Positions 31,005-52,374 of a stretch of 64,000 nucleotides of DNA are shown here, piece after piece (the stretch's first letter is position 1; every line of letters starts with the position of its first letter). Source of the stretch: a virus; the IMG/VR virus record IMGVR_UViG_3300034358_000008, positions 1-64,000 of that record, one strand, 5' to 3'. The notes beneath the pieces were generated by a model that saw only the letters and a list, made by a program, of their open reading frames with translations, was not told the DNA's origin and did not search any database. The translations under genes and the position numbers were made by a program.

Positions 31005-31649
31005 ATGTCCACGCAAATCGTAACCTGTCCTAACATGACTCTCGTAATCAAGCGACTGACTGATTACACTGTCATGCACCTCTCTGGTCTCTCCAACATC
31101 CCACACCTCTGCGTTAAGGTTCGTCACAACAACGGCTTTGTGTGGTTTGGCATCAACGTAATCGGTGTTACCGACACAAGTGCATGGTCGAAGAAGACAG
31201 AAGAAACTGTCTACAGCCAGTTCATGGAAGCAATGCGACAGATCATCGACATCGTTACTCTGGAATCGGATGTACCATTGTTGATGCGTTCTTTGCAGGA
31301 TATCACTACTGGTCGTAAGCGTCCTGTGATGTTCGGTGGTAACACCAACGAGTTCGTTCAGATCTGTTCCACTAACAATGTGCAGATCGAAGTGTATCGT
31401 CATGAAGTTCGTCACGAGGCCACCACTTACGGTGGCTTCTTCGCTACGGCCCGTGCTGGCGGTAAGACATATCCAGTAATGGTCTACCATCGTGGGATCA
31501 TCCTGTACAACTACATCACTAAAGAAGCAGTTTGCGAAATGCTTCGTAATGAACTGACTGCTTTGTTCCCAGATACCTTTGGGACTGATCTCGTTATCAA
31601 GTTCAGTGATATCGAGTCTGTTCCACGCAACCGTAGCAAACGGAGCTAA
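31005..31649 (+). CDS. hypothetical protein
   Basis: 214 residues. HLCVKVRHNNGFVWFGI and FGGNTNEFVQICSTNNVQIEVY are reminiscent of the preceding gene, so a distant paralog is possible. Basic C-terminus (PRNRSKRS). Confidence 0.72.
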   Translation: MSTQIVTCPNMTLVIKRLTDYTVMHLSGLSNIPHLCVKVRHNNGFVWFGINVIGVTDTSAWSKKTEETVYSQFMEAMRQIIDIVTLESDVPLLMRSLQDITTGRKRPVMFGGNTNEFVQICSTNNVQIEVYRHEVRHEATTYGGFFATARAGGKTYPVMVYHRGIILYNYITKEAVCEMLRNELTALFPDTFGTDLVIKFSDIESVPRNRSKRS

Positions 31650-31651
31650 CC

Positions 31652-32038
31652 ATGAACTCTCAGATCCTTATTGTAGATCTTGTCCGTAACTGGCATACGG
31701 TCGGAAACAACTCAAGGTTCGCTAGTAAGGATCTTGAGCATTTCACGTTGTCTTTGGTAAGTCAACCGGTTGAATACGATGGCACAGAAGACTTCTCTGT
31801 TATCGTGTTGTGGGGTGATGTTGAAACGAAGCCTAAAGCCGAAGGTGAGCGGAATCCAGTTCATGACCTAATCCATGAAGTGGTGAAGAAGTTCGCTATC
31901 GGTGTAGGGTGTCGTACCAGTCAAGTCAATCATGATAACCGGACTACCAAGGTCAAGCTTAAAGCTGAAGAAGCAAAGAACGTTGTTGAATTTGAATGGC
32001 TGGAGATCAACCTTGCAGATCACAAAAGACTCGAGTGA
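31652..32038 (+). CDS. hypothetical protein
   Basis: 128 residues, beta-rich N-terminus and charged C-terminus. Follows after two bases. No family recognised. Confidence 0.72.
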   Translation: MNSQILIVDLVRNWHTVGNNSRFASKDLEHFTLSLVSQPVEYDGTEDFSVIVLWGDVETKPKAEGERNPVHDLIHEVVKKFAIGVGCRTSQVNHDNRTTKVKLKAEEAKNVVEFEWLEINLADHKRLE

Positions 32039-32078
32039 ATTAAGTAGGACCAAGAAGTTAGCGCGCCGTTACGCAAAC

Positions 32079-32309
32079 ATGTTGGTGATCTGGGTAACGC
32101 TCACGTATATGCTCGTGATCGCGGTCGGCGTACCGATTAGCATTATCCCAGACATAAAGACATTACTCATTGTCCCTCGTGTGGAAGATCACACTTTGTT
32201 GAAATGGTTAATGTCGGCTTACCTTGCGACAGCATTCTGTCTGGAATGGTTCCTGTATGGAGTCATTCAACGTGCTCGTGCGCGGATCAAGTTGTACGAA
32301 GTAGATTAA
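32079..32309 (+). CDS. two-span membrane protein (start uncertain)
   Basis: 76 residues from ATG 32079. Hydrophobic at about 1-24 and 40-62, ending in a basic tail (RARARIKLYEVD). No good RBS is seen before this ATG. The frame is open back to ATG 31932, inside the previous gene, so an upstream start is possible. Confidence 0.5.
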   Translation: MLVIWVTLTYMLVIAVGVPISIIPDIKTLLIVPRVEDHTLLKWLMSAYLATAFCLEWFLYGVIQRARARIKLYEVD

Positions 32310-32334
32310 AGGAATACTGTTGTGGTAATAATAT

Positions 32335-32803
32335 AGGAGTGAATGCTCCTCCCGTGATCATCATGCCTTTCATTGGCAACACCCCCTGATCGCGGGCTTC
32401 CTATTCAGAACCATTGCTACGGCAGTGGATCTAAAAGTTTAGGAGTTCTCAAGGGTCATCTCCCTATCCATGGTCCCCGTCGCCTTAGCTACAGGATAGG
32501 GCCTTGATCGAACTCCGCCTAAGCATAGCTGAACTTTCGGTATACGCGAAGCATTTCCCTCTCCGGGTTTTGTCTTGTGAAGAACATAGTGGCCATTAAC
32601 CAGTGGTCGAACCGAAGCATTGTCCCTTGACTGGTTCTCATCCTGACAATGAAGTTATCAACAACATAACACTAACTGGTTAGGTTATTAGAAGATAGCG
32701 ACTGACGATTGCGATACCTCTGAATAAGCTGGGGGTTACGCTGGCCAGCACGCAAGAGTTAGATTACAGCCCAAGCCCCCTGCCATCTGGCGGGGGCTTT
32801 ATT
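32335..32803 (+). ncRNA. candidate structured non-coding RNA, about 470 nt
   Basis: No credible gene lies between 32310 and 32821, the longest empty stretch of the plus-strand block. Helices visible by eye: AGGAG/CTCCT (32335-32350); a 10-pair stem 32351-32360 with 32387-32396 enclosing TGCC/GGCA; CCATTGC/GCAGTGG around a UACG tetraloop (32411-32428); a compound arm 32439-32448 with 32510-32522, CAAGG/CCTTG, and CCCTATCC/GGATAGGG (32462-32469 with 32494-32501); and CATTGTC/GACAATG (32618-32624 with 32645-32651). It ends at a strong terminator. It does not resemble tmRNA, RNase P RNA or a group I intron core by the motifs I know. The 5' end is a guess. Confidence 0.65.
32773..32799 (+). terminator. 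strong intrinsic terminator of the non-coding RNA
   Basis: Stem AAGCCCCC-T-GCC/GGC-GGGGGCTT (one bulged T) with loop ATCT, then TTATTTCG. Confidence 0.88.
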
Positions 32804-32821
32804 TCGTCTTAAGGAGATACT

Positions 32822-33265
32822 GTGAAAAAGATCGATAACACAACATTCCTGATTGAAAGACAGGGCGAACTGGAACAGGTCGTCATTGACTATTTCAAGG
32901 GTGAAGCCGACGCCGGACTTATTCGTGGTCACGTCGCCGGAATCCCAAGTTGGTATTCTGTTTATTACTTAGAGGTGCCGACCGAGTATCCATTCGTTGC
33001 ATTACTAAATGATGACGATGAGCGTTGTAACATCGAATTCCAATATGTCAAACCTAGTGACTTCATCTGTATTGATGATGGTTCGCAACGTCTGTTCGAA
33101 TTCCAACTACGTCGGTCAATGACCTCAAGTCCTTATCGCGTGGTCGAGTCAACTTATCAAATACCCGCAAAAGATATCTTCGAGGCTCATCTCAAACTTG
33201 GTCAGACCATGCACCGAAGCGAAGAGTATGAACTGGAGGTCGTTTCCTATCAACAAGTTCGCTAA
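32822..33265 (+). CDS. hypothetical protein, GELxxxI paralog 1
   Basis: 147 residues from GTG 32822 (AAGGAG upstream). FLIERQGELEQVVIDYF, LIRGHVAG, TEYPFVALLNDDDE and FQYVKPSDFI align in order with the gene at 33479, so the two are paralogs separated by one small gene. Function unknown. First gene after the non-coding RNA. Confidence 0.74.
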   Translation: MKKIDNTTFLIERQGELEQVVIDYFKGEADAGLIRGHVAGIPSWYSVYYLEVPTEYPFVALLNDDDERCNIEFQYVKPSDFICIDDGSQRLFEFQLRRSMTSSPYRVVESTYQIPAKDIFEAHLKLGQTMHRSEEYELEVVSYQQVR

Positions 33266-36313: not shown

Positions 36314-37198
36314 CTATTTGAGGAAAGTCCCACAGGAAGCCTGTACATCTGTACCGACACGCGGGATTAGTTTGACACGGCCTTCAGGCAAGCGTCGTTT
36401 GATATAGCGGTAAAGGTAATCGATCTGACCGAATACAGGTTCACGTGACAGGTGTCCCTCTGGTGGATTGTAGCGAACGATATTCCAGTTAACGTCTAGT
36501 TGATAACCATCGATCTCATCTAGAATACACTTGACGTCATGGAGTGTGTCATTCTCGTGTTCAATGAAAGCGTAATGGATCTTTGGAACTTTACCGGTGT
36601 GGAGCTGCCATTCTTTAAGTGCACTAAACGCATTACGTGGGTATTGGGCTTTAGGTAACCAACGCCGACGGAATCGTTCGTTAAGCGAATATACAGAGTA
36701 GTACAACTCAGGGTAAACCGTTGGATCTTGGAATACGTTTACTAGACCCCTGTTACCGAACTCCTCAGGGAAGATAGTCGAGATCAGGAATTTAGCTTCC
36801 AATCCGTATGCAGCTGCACGTTCTTTCAACCCACGCAGAATCAAGTCAGCATTAGCTAAGAAGATCCTGTTGGCCAATGGTTCGCCACGCGCCATGAAAT
36901 TAAAGTGAACACGTTCAGCCGGATGTTTGGTAGCATAGTATGCCAATACTTCGTCCGCCTGCTGGAAATATTCCTCCACAGTGACGTCACGCAGATCAGT
37001 CTGTCCAGTGGCCGTCAACCAGCACATCCTACAAGCTTGCTTACAGCCCGTCTGAGAGCTTAAGTAAACAATGAAGTACTCGTCTGTCCTTCTTACATAA
37101 CGTGCCTCCAATCGTCCCCTGTGATCTTCAAAGACATGTTCGAAGTTAACGGATTGGTCTAATTGCGAATGGTGTTCTTTAAAGATCAGCTGGGTCAT
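36314..37198 (-). CDS. RlmN/Cfr-like radical SAM protein
   Basis: 294 residues. SSQTGCKQACRMCW holds the C-x3-C-x2-C iron-sulfur motif (Cys 52, 56, 59). FNFMARGEPLAN matches the RGMGEPLLN segment of RlmN and Cfr. RVGTDVQASCGTF near the end matches their methyl-carrying Cys (289 here). Those enzymes methylate adenine C2 or C8 in 23S rRNA, and RlmN also tRNA. Two oddities: the N-terminal accessory domain of about 70-90 residues is missing, and the second catalytic Cys, seven residues before the first cluster Cys in RlmN, is Tyr 45. The target RNA is unknown; the tRNA cluster nearby is suggestive. Confidence 0.82.
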   Translation of the reverse strand: MTQLIFKEHHSQLDQSVNFEHVFEDHRGRLEARYVRRTDEYFIVYLSSQTGCKQACRMCWLTATGQTDLRDVTVEEYFQQADEVLAYYATKHPAERVHFNFMARGEPLANRIFLANADLILRGLKERAAAYGLEAKFLISTIFPEEFGNRGLVNVFQDPTVYPELYYSVYSLNERFRRRWLPKAQYPRNAFSALKEWQLHTGKVPKIHYAFIEHENDTLHDVKCILDEIDGYQLDVNWNIVRYNPPEGHLSREPVFGQIDYLYRYIKRRLPEGRVKLIPRVGTDVQASCGTFLK

Positions 37199-41641: not shown

Positions 41642-41651
41642 TACATACTAT
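41642..41651 (-). promoter_or_regulatory. ATAGTATGTA element (2 of 4)
   Basis: GTAATAGTATGTAA on the minus strand, ending 11 bases before the first base of tRNA-Trp. The position suits a promoter core at about -10. Confidence 0.65.
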
Positions 41652-41959
41652 TACTTAGCGAGTAAACTTTTCACGTAAGCTTCCCATTCAAACACTGTAA
41701 AGATAGTCCTGAGTAGGTCACACGTTGATACACCATTTACATAGTTGATATGTAAAGTCTTTAACGAGTGAGCTGGTGTGATGTATGTTAAATTGGAATC
41801 GTATATATCATGCTTCACCAACAACCCATTGCATACATTACCTCCTTCGCTACAGAGGTATGTGATATGATGCCGTCTCTCAACGCCGGTCTCTTCGCAA
41901 TCTGCAACTGCATGATTTGATATTGTAATCATGTCTCTTTTACAACATGGACACTTCAT
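41651..41959 (-). CDS. small zinc-ribbon-like protein
   Basis: 102 residues. MKCPCCKRDM and the pair CSEGGNVCNG supply a possible four-Cys site with a His-rich segment between (RRHHITYLC). Such ribbons are common in phage regulators. Function not assigned. Confidence 0.7.
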   Translation of the reverse strand: MKCPCCKRDMITISNHAVADCEETGVERRHHITYLCSEGGNVCNGLLVKHDIYDSNLTYITPAHSLKTLHINYVNGVSTCDLLRTIFTVFEWEAYVKSLLAK

Positions 41960-42878: not shown

Positions 42879-42888
42879 ACATACTATT
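42879..42888 (-). promoter_or_regulatory. ATAGTATGTA element (3 of 4)
   Basis: Minus-strand GCAATAGTATGTAGGAC, 76 bases upstream of tRNA-Tyr. It would drive tRNA-Tyr, the tRNA-like stretch, a small gene and tRNA-Asn to the terminator at 42171. Bases 42803-42920 hold no gene. Confidence 0.6.
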
Positions 42889-42920
42889 GCAACAATTGTA
42901 TTCTTTTACAACGACTTACA

Positions 42921-44151: not shown

Positions 44152-46392
44152 TTAGGAGTCTTTAACAGACTTCTCGATCAGCTGGAATACAGCCATGATG
44201 TACGGCTGTAGTTGATGAAACTCAACCCCTACACGATGCATGTTGTACACATGTTCCATAGCCTTCTGATACAACTCTGTAAACTTAGGATCTTTAACTT
44301 GATCATACAACTCCCCATAGTTGGACTTACCTACATATTTCCAGTCCATCCAAGCGTGGGTGTTAATGAAGGTAGAGTTCCACCGCTTAACGAAAGTTAG
44401 GTCTGCCCCTAGTACATTGAACAACTCATAGAGCTTCTTAGCTTCCTCCACAATCTGTTCGGGAGTTAGCGTGTTCACTTCACCAGATTCAACTTTAACC
44501 TTAGGTACTTCTACCTTAGGTTCCTTTAACTGACGAGTAGCCTTCATGATCGTGATGGCTTTCTCAACGTTAGCTGAGTTGTCCAACGATTTACGTTGGA
44601 TCATGTTCATGACTGCTTCCATGTTGTTAAACGCTTGTTCTGCAACTTTGTGATGCTCAACCCGATTAGCTTGACAAGCCTTAATAAACTCAGGCACTAC
44701 TTTATCGTACTCTGCGATTAGGTTAGCGCCTTGTATGGATACTTTCTTGACATCAGACTGGCCATGCGTTTTAACCCAGTTGATGTCAGTGTACTTTTTT
44801 ACTTCATGTACCAGGTTGTGTAAGAAACCTTTGCCTACCGTGTCATAGATTTCGGTATCCTTACCTTTCGTAAAAAACTTCTTGATCGCACCCAACAGAT
44901 CTTCAGTGGATGGGACCAGTTCTGATTCTCCGAAGGTTTCAATAGCTACGCTCTCTATTGGAGTAATAGCTTCGAGACCAACGGTCATAAACTGACGAGC
45001 AACTGGATCGAGGCCATCTATGCCAGCCTGCTCAATCTGAGATCTGTACGTGGTAAGGGTTTTATCATTCATATTGGTTCTTCCAGAGAAATAGTTTTCT
45101 TTAGCTATCAGCATATCGCCTTTGATGGATCTATCCATCCAGACAGCCGCAGCTATGATCATGTCAAAGTATTCTTCACGGGCTTTGTTATACTCTGCAT
45201 TATTTAAGAGTATTTTCCATGGGATAACGTTAGACGATTGAAAAAGCTTCATCCATTTTTCGTTATTATGGAACGCACTTGGTACGTTATAACCCTTAAA
45301 AGATTTCCATTTGATGTTAACACCGTCCCTTAGATAAAACTCCTTGAGCACCTTCAATTGGTGAAAGAGTTCTTTCCCACCTGCTTTAACTTCAGCTTCA
45401 CTAAGAGCGTTGATCTCTTTTACCGTACCACCACCGTACTTAGCTGTATTTAGAAATACAGGTTTTGTCAGCTTAGCCAGATTTTCAGAGAAAGTAGCTA
45501 ATGCCTCATCCGTTGGACCAGCTTTGAATACAGTTTGCATTATAGGCGTTACTTCCGCCAGATATGCATCTACTGTGTTAACCCAGTTAGCGAAGTCTTT
45601 AAGATACGCGCCACCTTGCCCCAGCAATCTCAATATGTCCGGGTTACCCGGTGGTAGCATCTCGATAATGTCAGTCCCATTAATAGGGCCTTTGAGATAT
45701 GTCTGCTTGGCCAACCAACTAGGTGATGCAAGGCTATCTCTTACCTGAGCAAACGCGTATGCGTTGTTATTAAGATTACTTTTACGGAACCCGTGGTCGT
45801 TACCTTTGTTGGAGAAACCGAATGCTTTACGCATCGTATCCATTAATGATTCATTACTAATTTGAGCGACCATGGTATTCCGGTATGCCTCTAATAGTTC
45901 AATTCGTTTAACGGCATGGCGAGAGTAATGTTCCATCCCCGGTTTGATAAAGATCTCACCTTTGACATTCCGGCCAGCGTAATTAGTTTTCTGTACGCGC
46001 ATGATGTAAGAGTTCAATCCTTTACCATCATTGGCATAGCGTTTCATTTCATCAAGCTGTTCACGTGTAGTAGACTTGATCGTGTAGAGGTAACGGGAAC
46101 CTGTAGTGAACTTCACTAGAATCCAGTCGTCTCCAAGATCGTAACTATCCACACCTGAGTTACCGCCAGTGTTAGCATAACTGTGGGCCTGTCTGTGGTC
46201 GTCTAAGAGCTGTGTAATAGAAGCCGGGGGAACGCCCGTTTCTTCTACGATCGCTTCGTCAACGTCACCCCAGTAGCCCTTAACTGTATCTACGGCTTCA
46301 TCCCAGTACTGCTTTACTACATCGACTGCATCCTCATTGGAAACAGTCATCCGATCTTTAATACGACGGATTAAAAGGTCTAGAGAGTTCAT
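44152..46392 (-). CDS. probable virion protein with KTSC-like domain
   Basis: 746 residues, one of the two longest unknowns by size class here. Residues about 80-132 (VDSYDLGDDWILVKFTTGS, RYLYTIKSTTREQLDEMKRY, NDGKGLNSYI) fit the KTSC domain pattern: strand, FxxGxxYxY, helix, GxxxNxxI. The rest is long helices with a Glu/Lys/Val-rich linker near residue 640. The size, lone transcription unit and late-type upstream region suggest a structural or internal head protein; this is inference. Confidence 0.68.
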   Translation of the reverse strand: MNSLDLLIRRIKDRMTVSNEDAVDVVKQYWDEAVDTVKGYWGDVDEAIVEETGVPPASITQLLDDHRQAHSYANTGGNSGVDSYDLGDDWILVKFTTGSRYLYTIKSTTREQLDEMKRYANDGKGLNSYIMRVQKTNYAGRNVKGEIFIKPGMEHYSRHAVKRIELLEAYRNTMVAQISNESLMDTMRKAFGFSNKGNDHGFRKSNLNNNAYAFAQVRDSLASPSWLAKQTYLKGPINGTDIIEMLPPGNPDILRLLGQGGAYLKDFANWVNTVDAYLAEVTPIMQTVFKAGPTDEALATFSENLAKLTKPVFLNTAKYGGGTVKEINALSEAEVKAGGKELFHQLKVLKEFYLRDGVNIKWKSFKGYNVPSAFHNNEKWMKLFQSSNVIPWKILLNNAEYNKAREEYFDMIIAAAVWMDRSIKGDMLIAKENYFSGRTNMNDKTLTTYRSQIEQAGIDGLDPVARQFMTVGLEAITPIESVAIETFGESELVPSTEDLLGAIKKFFTKGKDTEIYDTVGKGFLHNLVHEVKKYTDINWVKTHGQSDVKKVSIQGANLIAEYDKVVPEFIKACQANRVEHHKVAEQAFNNMEAVMNMIQRKSLDNSANVEKAITIMKATRQLKEPKVEVPKVKVESGEVNTLTPEQIVEEAKKLYELFNVLGADLTFVKRWNSTFINTHAWMDWKYVGKSNYGELYDQVKDPKFTELYQKAMEHVYNMHRVGVEFHQLQPYIMAVFQLIEKSVKDS

Positions 46393-51210: not shown

Positions 51211-52374
51211 TTAATCTAGGAAGTCGACTTCGAATTCTGCTTGTTCATTGGAGGTGTCCAAAGCGTTAACCATGTACTGGTTGTTATCCACTTCTTGAGG
51301 ACTGGTTTGGTTTGCAGCAAGATCGAGATATTCGGTCATGTAAGGGAGTGGGTTCTTCTCAGGCCATTCCAGTTCAAAACCAGTAACTTCCAAGAACTCA
51401 GCGTAGTGAGCTTCAGTCAGTTGACCTTTATGGCCAGTGAAGATACCAGCAGCATTACCATTGAACAGGACCCATTGGATCATCTTCTTCAGTGTCACAC
51501 CCGGCAGTTCACGACCTTCAGAGAACAGGTACATCAACCAACGAACTTCCGACATCAGAACTTCCCAATACAACTTGGTGCATTCTTCTTTGGTTTGTTC
51601 GTATGCAAGACGTCCACGTTCCGTTTTAAGCAGGGCTTTGATTACTTCCTGACCGAACTGTGCATGGATCTCGAACTCGTCGATAGCGATCTTCTGGACA
51701 CCCATAACGATAGGTTGGAAGCGACCCATCTTACCGAAGGCGAAGGTCACAGCAAACGAAGCCATGAACTGAACACGTTCTAGGTAGTACAGAGCCATGA
51801 AGAACTTGAAGATCTTGTTGTACAAGTCTTGATCGTTCGGGATAGTACCACAAGCGTAAGCATGGGAAGCATCATGTGCCTCACCCATTACTTTAGCTAC
51901 TGTCACCAGACGCTCTTGGGCTTCTTGTACTTTCAGAATCTCATCCAGAATAACCTGTGGATTCTTAAACGAGTTACGCACGATCTCTGAGTAGGTCAGA
52001 GCGTGCAGGTTCTCGTTGGAGTTGATCAGTACGTAGCCTGCCCACACACGGGAGTCAGTCATTACTGGACCAAGGATGTTTACGATAGCACGGGATGCAG
52101 TAGCGTCAGCTTCCCATTGCCATGCCAGAGTCTTGATCATCATCTCGTAAGAAGTACGGTCACACGTTTCAAACTCGTGGAGACAGTCAGCATACGGGAA
52201 TTCATTCTCATCCCAATCCATCATCTTCAAACGTTTGTACAGGTTGAAGAGGATCGGGTGATGGTTGTTGATAGAATCGAACAGGCCCGGCTCCTGACCC
52301 AGAATGATCTCGTTGGAATCGTAGTCGGACTTGTTAGCGTTAAAGATTTTAATCGGGAGATCTACGTTGGACAT
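51211..52374 (-). CDS. nrdB: class Ia ribonucleotide reductase beta subunit
   Basis: 387 residues. NrdB houses the di-iron centre and tyrosyl radical that starts ribonucleotide reduction. Visible are NENLHALTYSEI (ligands Glu and His plus the radical Tyr position), YYLERVQFMASF (Glu), and DEFEIHAQF (Glu and His). The acidic C-terminal tail (EQAEFEVDFLD) is the usual docking peptide for NrdA. The gene lies 3.3 kb from nrdA, separated by plus-strand genes. Confidence 0.95.
   Translation of the reverse strand: MSNVDLPIKIFNANKSDYDSNEIILGQEPGLFDSINNHHPILFNLYKRLKMMDWDENEFPYADCLHEFETCDRTSYEMMIKTLAWQWEADATASRAIVNILGPVMTDSRVWAGYVLINSNENLHALTYSEIVRNSFKNPQVILDEILKVQEAQERLVTVAKVMGEAHDASHAYACGTIPNDQDLYNKIFKFFMALYYLERVQFMASFAVTFAFGKMGRFQPIVMGVQKIAIDEFEIHAQFGQEVIKALLKTERGRLAYEQTKEECTKLYWEVLMSEVRWLMYLFSEGRELPGVTLKKMIQWVLFNGNAAGIFTGHKGQLTEAHYAEFLEVTGFELEWPEKNPLPYMTEYLDLAANQTSPQEVDNNQYMVNALDTSNEQAEFEVDFLD

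Follow-up and report, generated by a model that had tools for sequence, protein, structure and literature searches.

The model nucleus-forming phage is phiKZ. By Grad-seq, two noncoding RNAs have been described for this phage, one in the 3′ UTR of PHIKZ298/297 and one in the 5′ UTR of p40, both structured, ~100-180 nt long and positioned beside a terminator (PMC8545117), and a 2026 review touches on the noncoding RNAs of phiKZ in a single sentence (PMC13282480). GOLLD and ROOL are phage-borne, highly structured RNAs of >600 nt with no known protein product and a link to tRNA genes; together with OLE, they form homo-oligomers, kissing loops being among the contacts (PMC12286853). GOLLD has one universal and one variable region.

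Here, we describe a structured RNA encoded in a window of 64,000 nt from the start of a virus record of 324,912 bp (325-kb genome), and in the relatives of this phage. It belongs to the same phage group as the Grad-seq RNAs and resembles them in structure, length and proximity to a terminator, but its phiKZ copy lies elsewhere, between PHIKZ288 and PHIKZ289, and has a promoter-like block of its own, whereas the former are read as UTR-derived. With GOLLD and ROOL it shares phage carriage, extensive structure, the lack of a known protein product and a tRNA-gene link, and with GOLLD also the split into universal and variable parts. In contrast to both, it has a universal core of ~85 nt within a total length of 130-490 nt, and its tRNA link is a shared promoter class rather than adjacency. 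PHIKZ289 was named in no paper that we searched; a transcript may be tabulated in the main phiKZ transcriptome study.

Results

A structured noncoding RNA gene downstream of gp287

The ORF at 31005-31649 encodes a homolog of phiKZ gp287 (44% identity to phiKZ, 56% to 201phi2-1 and 57% to Viktualia), assigning the window to a phiKZ-like Pseudomonas jumbo phage near the latter two. An initial annotation from sequence alone had proposed a gene-free gap harboring a structured RNA with its own terminator. Indeed, no supported gene exists between the end of the upstream ORF at 32309 and the start of the downstream ORF at 32822 (AAGGAG at 32811), and the segment 32335-32803, whose start coincides with the inferred transcription start at the end of the promoter-like block, folds with -158.3 kcal/mol, whereas its dinucleotide-shuffled versions give -136.6 ± 6.5 (z = -3.35) and none of 100 reached as low a value. 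The 10-pair stem, the UACG-capped hairpin and the terminator that had been picked out by eye were all recovered (Table 1), as was a compound arm for which about 18 pairs had been counted; the arm is there, albeit with ~20 pairs (7 + 6 + 7).

Table 1 Features of the RNA locus in the window.
Feature	Position	Strand	Remarks
Promoter-like block AATACTGTTGTGGTAATAATATA	32313-32335	+	Ends in TATA at the inferred start; same class as 5′ of phage tRNA genes
Whole noncoding RNA, long form	32335-32803	+	Fold z-score, covariation, non-coding
5′ domain	32335-32431	+	Found only in the window clade
5′ domain hairpin AGGAGUGAAUGCUCCU	32335-32350	+	
10-pair stem CCCGUGAUCA/UGAUCGCGGG	32351-32360 with 32387-32396	+	In 5′ domain (32351-32396)
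UACG-capped hairpin	32412-32427, within 32408-32431	+	In 5′ domain
Universal core	32442-32524	+	Model from other lineages matches 32438-32534 (E = 1e-7)
Core helices P1 GGAGUUC/GAACUCC, P2 UCAAGG/CCUUGA, P3 CCUAUCC/GGAUAGG	within 32442-32516	+	7 + 6 + 7 pairs (the compound arm)
Core internal loop AUCUC	32458-32462	+	
Core loop CCCCGUC	32475-32481	+	
Core tail GCCUAAGC	within 32442-32524	+	
3′ domain part 1, long-range pairing UUUCGG/CCGAAG	32534-32541 with 32611-32618	+	Whole part 32534-32618
Hairpin inside the UUUCGG/CCGAAG pairing	32590-32609	+	Covarying; compensatory change in 6 of 7 pairs
3′ domain part 2, hairpin CAUUGU...ACAAUG	32618-32651	+	Compensatory change in 3 of 6 outer pairs
3′ domain part 3, stem GUUAUC/GAUAGC and branched arm (32702-32762)	32651-32766	+	Part-3 model finds the same place in PA1C (E = 0.03)
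Palindrome GCUGGCCAGC	32740-32749	+	In branched arm of 3′ domain part 3
Intrinsic terminator AAGCCCCCUGCCAUCUGGCGGGGGCUUUAUU	32773-32803	+	Terminator also 3′ of the RNA in homologous loci

Searches with Rfam 15, which includes GOLLD, ROOL, OLE, tmRNA, RNase P, group I introns, 6S RNA and riboswitches, gave no match over the window at gathering thresholds; relaxing the cut-off to E = 10 for 32000-33100, or to E = 0.5 for the loci of phiKZ, PhiPA3, Psa21 and PA1C, brought up nothing meaningful either. ARAGORN placed no tRNA or tmRNA in the gap, the three tRNAs of the window all lying near 41.5-42.8 kb. This is in line with the earlier view that the RNA lacks the hallmarks of tmRNA, RNase P, group I introns and tRNA and has no specific match to a known family; GOLLD and ROOL are among the Rfam families that do not match.

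Covarying base pairs, which the initial annotation had named as a check, are present both across close relatives and in the core described below. For six close relatives, we used a slightly trimmed RNAalifold structure of 101 pairs in 17 helices and an alignment made blind to structure. Compensatory changes occurred in 29 of the 101 pairs (12.6 in shuffles), 96.3% of the cells paired as opposed to 35-45% with partners slid by 1-3 columns, and the covariation score of 0.324 (shuffled: 0.190) was reached by 0 of 500 shuffles. The long-range UUUCGG/CCGAAG pairs show no variation within the window clade.

A conserved reading frame, the finding that would have spoken against an RNA, is absent from the homologs. 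Stops in every frame, frame-shifting indels and mismatch rates that are about equal across the three codon phases (e.g., 0.35/0.34/0.34) rule out a coding region. In Viktualia, short CDSs called across the element lack support in relatives, and gp425 of 201phi2-1 overlaps the RNA because its annotated start seems to be set too far upstream. Chance folding is likewise ruled out, by the shuffle z-score and by covariation in the core and in the six relatives. The interval 32335-32803 is a real, well-supported structured noncoding RNA gene.

Two other genes deserve mention in their own right. The gene 3′ of the RNA in phiKZ (PHIKZ289, L004:5749-6480), PhiPA3 and PA1C resembles HslV-type peptidases (PHROG 1040, E = 1.3e-5), and the window encodes at 36314-37198 (minus strand) a radical-SAM-like (Fe-S-cluster redox) protein that it shares with Viktualia.

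A universal core with lineage-variable extensions

201phi2-1 (66%) and Viktualia (71%) were the only annotated phages in which DNA searches detected the element; their neighboring proteins are 33-57% identical to those of the window. Exact-pattern scans for the long form returned close relatives only. Further loci were collected from IMG/VR using sequence patterns and gp287; a gp287 scan of bacterial genomes found no relative. The relatives carry the RNA at the same genomic place, downstream of gp287, and a core of ~85 nt was present there in nearly every locus reaching far enough, including those of phiKZ, T2P, PA7, Phabio, Psa21, PhiPA3, PA1C and metagenomic relatives. The locus falls at about 263,150-263,330 in phiKZ and at about 287,050-287,540 in 201phi2-1. 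A further pattern match (L084) falls in a low-GC stretch and lacks the core.

The core was located by searching for AUCUCYC...CCCGUC...TGCY, followed by dissection of 19 sequences by hand. It consists of helices P1 (7-10 pairs), P2 (4-6), P3 (5-7) and P4 (3-5), an asymmetric internal loop in which an invariant AUCUC faces UG (G alone in the window), an invariant CCCGUC in the P4 loop, and a tail resembling RCCUA. Within P1-P3, 345 of 354 pair cells hold a standard pair. The hand-placed core of the window is slightly divergent, with GGG instead of GGUG. We do not claim a pseudoknot between GGUG and a CACC tail, which fits by eye in part of the sequences only, nor mimicry of the 16S rRNA decoding strand by CCCGUC, a six-base match that is likely due to chance.

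In a structure-blind MAFFT alignment of 13 sequences, with the window clade left out, 94.7% of the core cells paired, compared to 75.5% after shuffling and 34-58% with slid partners, the latter control being biased in favor of the structure since this was drawn from the same 13 sequences. Both sides had changed in 35 cells (11.3 in shuffles), and the covariation score was 0.627 (shuffled: 0.238; 0 of 500 as high). A covariance model of the core built from these sequences (R1), which is without that bias and whose E-values are rough, recognized the window even though its clade was not in the training set (Table 1), and gave exactly one match per record in 17 of 17 phage records, phiKZ, PhiPA3, Psa21, Phabio and 201phi2-1 among them. 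Nothing convincing was found with R1 in EL, OBP, Noxifer, SPN3US, Goslar or RAY; weak matches in OBP (E = 1.9) and EL (E = 2.6) were treated as chance, that in OBP having no core-like structure and looking coding. Judged by its recognition with a model naive to the window clade and by covariation, the core is a new RNA family.

Only this core is universal, the remainder being lineage-variable 5′ and 3′ extensions. In the short form of ~130 nt, seen in phiKZ, T2P, Phabio, Psa21 and several metagenomic relatives, the locus has only promoter block, core and terminator, as opposed to ~400-490 nt in the long form of the window, 201phi2-1, PhiPA3 and PA1C. A long 3′ domain is present in the window, L012, L014, Viktualia, L010, 201phi2-1, PhiPA3, PA1C and L027. 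The window, PhiPA3 and PA1C have in common the UUUCGG/CCGAAG pairing and the palindrome CUGGCCAG. A palindrome of 10-12 nt is kept in the long forms, reading ACUGGCCAGU in PhiPA3 and AGCUGGCCAGCU in PA1C. A 3′-junction model trained on the window clade alone recovered the corresponding segment of PA1C (E = 0.03) but had no match in either PhiPA3 or L027, and it detected no credible separate copy among short-form genomes. On the gp287 tree, whose root is not fixed, the distribution of long and short forms needs two changes; a long form followed by two losses would be the simpler history, because the long forms share motifs.

A promoter-like block shared with tRNA genes

Just 5′ of the RNA, the homologs share a block composed of AATACT, a short spacer, GTAATA, and TATG (phiKZ, T2P, Phabio, L020, L021 and L029) or TATA (the window and others) at the start. 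The full motif is degenerate ahead of several homologs, including that of phiKZ, and AATACTGTTGTGGTAATAATATA is its sole copy in the window's genome. No sigma-70 promoter was found near 32313. Searching 16 phage genomes for TACTN{3,9}GTAATANTATR yielded 38 matches in 15 of them, whereas the reversed pattern, used as control, yielded 0. For 22 of the 38 matches a tRNA gene follows within ~210 nt on the same strand, four precede the core RNA and the other 12 precede apparently noncoding stretches. At the tRNA density of the window, the chance of 22 in 38 is ~1e-39, of which only the direction matters, the genomes being related rather than independent.

The stretches behind the 12 matches without tRNA include an element of ~105 nt in the window and L053, to which one in Phabio is similar, one of ~125 nt (Psa21 and relatives) and longer structured stretches. 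Another of these matches lies upstream of PHIKZ054 (chmA), ahead of a separate match to the early promoter TATATTAC. The block itself resembles the reverse complement of TATATTAC, and all 22 tRNA-linked matches read in the direction of the tRNA; an early promoter was rejected on this basis.

Late promoters of phiKZ are known only as TATG, with G as +1 (PMC7598289, PMC7618050), and knock-down of chmA leads to loss of the phage tRNAs, from which the authors infer dependence on the non-virion RNA polymerase (nvRNAP; PMC12571901). Taken together with the tRNA-linked matches, this suggests that nvRNAP most likely uses the block as a promoter for stable RNAs. It is akin to the phiKZ late promoters in ending with TATG/TATA at the inferred start, and differs from them by its conserved TACT and GTAATA; for late promoters, no consensus upstream has been reported.

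Several additional loci with the motif were observed. On the minus strand of the window, the motif at 41644-41664 directly precedes tRNA-Trp, and a variant at 42880-42902 lies 5′ of tRNA-Tyr; 3′ of tRNA-Tyr, a structured stretch (42700-42540, minus strand) with a T-arm-like GGGUUCAACUCCC may be a tRNA-like element of degenerate or unusual form. Another candidate for a small noncoding RNA (51210-51085, minus strand), flanked by the gene for the small chain of ribonucleotide reductase (51211-52374) and the next ORF, has a TATG motif, a GUAACG...CGUUAC hairpin and a terminator, with relatives in L053 and, more weakly, in Phabio L074. Psa21 and relatives (L059, L068, L079) contain a conserved structured RNA candidate of ~125 nt with promoter motif and terminator, and structured noncoding stretches of ~300 nt lie behind the motif in L055 and L064 (perhaps also L063 and L073). 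L063 further contains an apparent tRNA-like segment absent from the ARAGORN output. The motif between PHIKZ053 and PHIKZ054 ahead of the TATATTAC match (L070, phiKZ 45470-45648; L082) might serve as promoter for a small RNA or for a second chmA transcript.

Discussion

We consider it probable that the locus is a stand-alone, nvRNAP-transcribed RNA gene of phiKZ-like nucleus-forming phages, whose product acts in trans and binds a protein through its core. nvRNAP would initiate the RNA at the TACT-N-GTAATANTATR promoter, transcription would stop at the terminator, and the transcript would act as a folded molecule. Four features argue for such an independent trans-acting RNA: a promoter class shared with tRNAs, the terminator, downstream genes that differ, and the coexistence of core and terminator in predicted folds. 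The core scaffold drifts by compensatory change around the unpaired AUCUC and CCCGUC, both invariant across phages of P. aeruginosa, P. syringae, P. fluorescens and P. chlororaphis; such a pattern suggests that a phage protein, or else a conserved factor of the host, recognizes the RNA. Most likely, the core (P1-P2, the AUCUC/UG loop, P3 and the P4 loop CCCGUC) would thus dock a phage-encoded or well-conserved host protein, while the 5′ and 3′ domains would be lineage-specific modules that some phages lack.

Alternatively, the RNA might be a riboswitch- or attenuator-like leader acting in cis, its core sensing a ligand or protein to control read-through of the terminator into the next gene. 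The core adjoins the terminator in short forms, every locus has a gene with its own ribosome-binding site 3′ of the terminator, and the invariant unpaired bases would fit a ligand pocket. However, the downstream genes change between lineages (gp289-like, DELFKLY family, small membrane proteins) with no link to one family, and the promoter class otherwise precedes tRNAs and apparently noncoding stretches. Moreover, single-sequence folds, which are ligand-free, recovered the same core together with the terminator for almost every short form and showed no conserved antiterminator, and no Rfam riboswitch matched. We therefore regard a cis-acting leader as unlikely.

A trans-acting RNA might instead be of the antisense type, pairing with phage or host mRNAs through its AUCUC and CCCGUC loops; its small size, terminator, single copy and invariant unpaired stretches would suit such a role. 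Yet these stretches are just 5-6 nt long and enclosed in an internal and an apical loop, and the lineage extensions far exceed antisense needs, making this reading rather improbable.

Joined via the palindrome GCUGGCCAGC, the RNA could also self-assemble into a particle as do the homo-oligomeric GOLLD, ROOL and OLE (PMC12286853), and long forms do keep a palindrome of 10-12 nt. This is, however, quite improbable: the palindrome can equally fold back on itself as a short hairpin around a GGCC loop, L027 does not clearly retain it, and, residing in a 3′ domain that all short forms lack, it cannot underlie the shared function.

In bacterial 6S RNA, an asymmetric bulge interrupts a long hairpin that is conserved in structure more than in sequence. 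By analogy, the similarly built core hairpin might mimic an open promoter and hold host or phage RNA polymerase, but its bulge is small (8 versus 2 nt), its invariant loops set it apart and no Rfam 6S match was found, so that a 6S-like polymerase regulator appears very improbable.

The preferred reading, a trans-acting RNA with a protein-binding core, concerns an RNA that every phiKZ-like genome examined carries and that was not found among the published phiKZ noncoding RNAs. As a single-copy RNA of ~130 nt, its phiKZ version is a tractable target for deletion, silencing and pull-down. The motif preceding it is a candidate long promoter for a polymerase with a known consensus of four bases only, and doubles as a finder for more phage noncoding RNAs. 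Tentatively, nucleus-forming phiKZ-like phages might run a stable-RNA program in which one nvRNAP promoter class serves tRNAs and several structured RNAs; the core RNA would be its universal member and could form an RNA-protein particle that the phage needs to take over or protect transcription or translation in the cell it infects.
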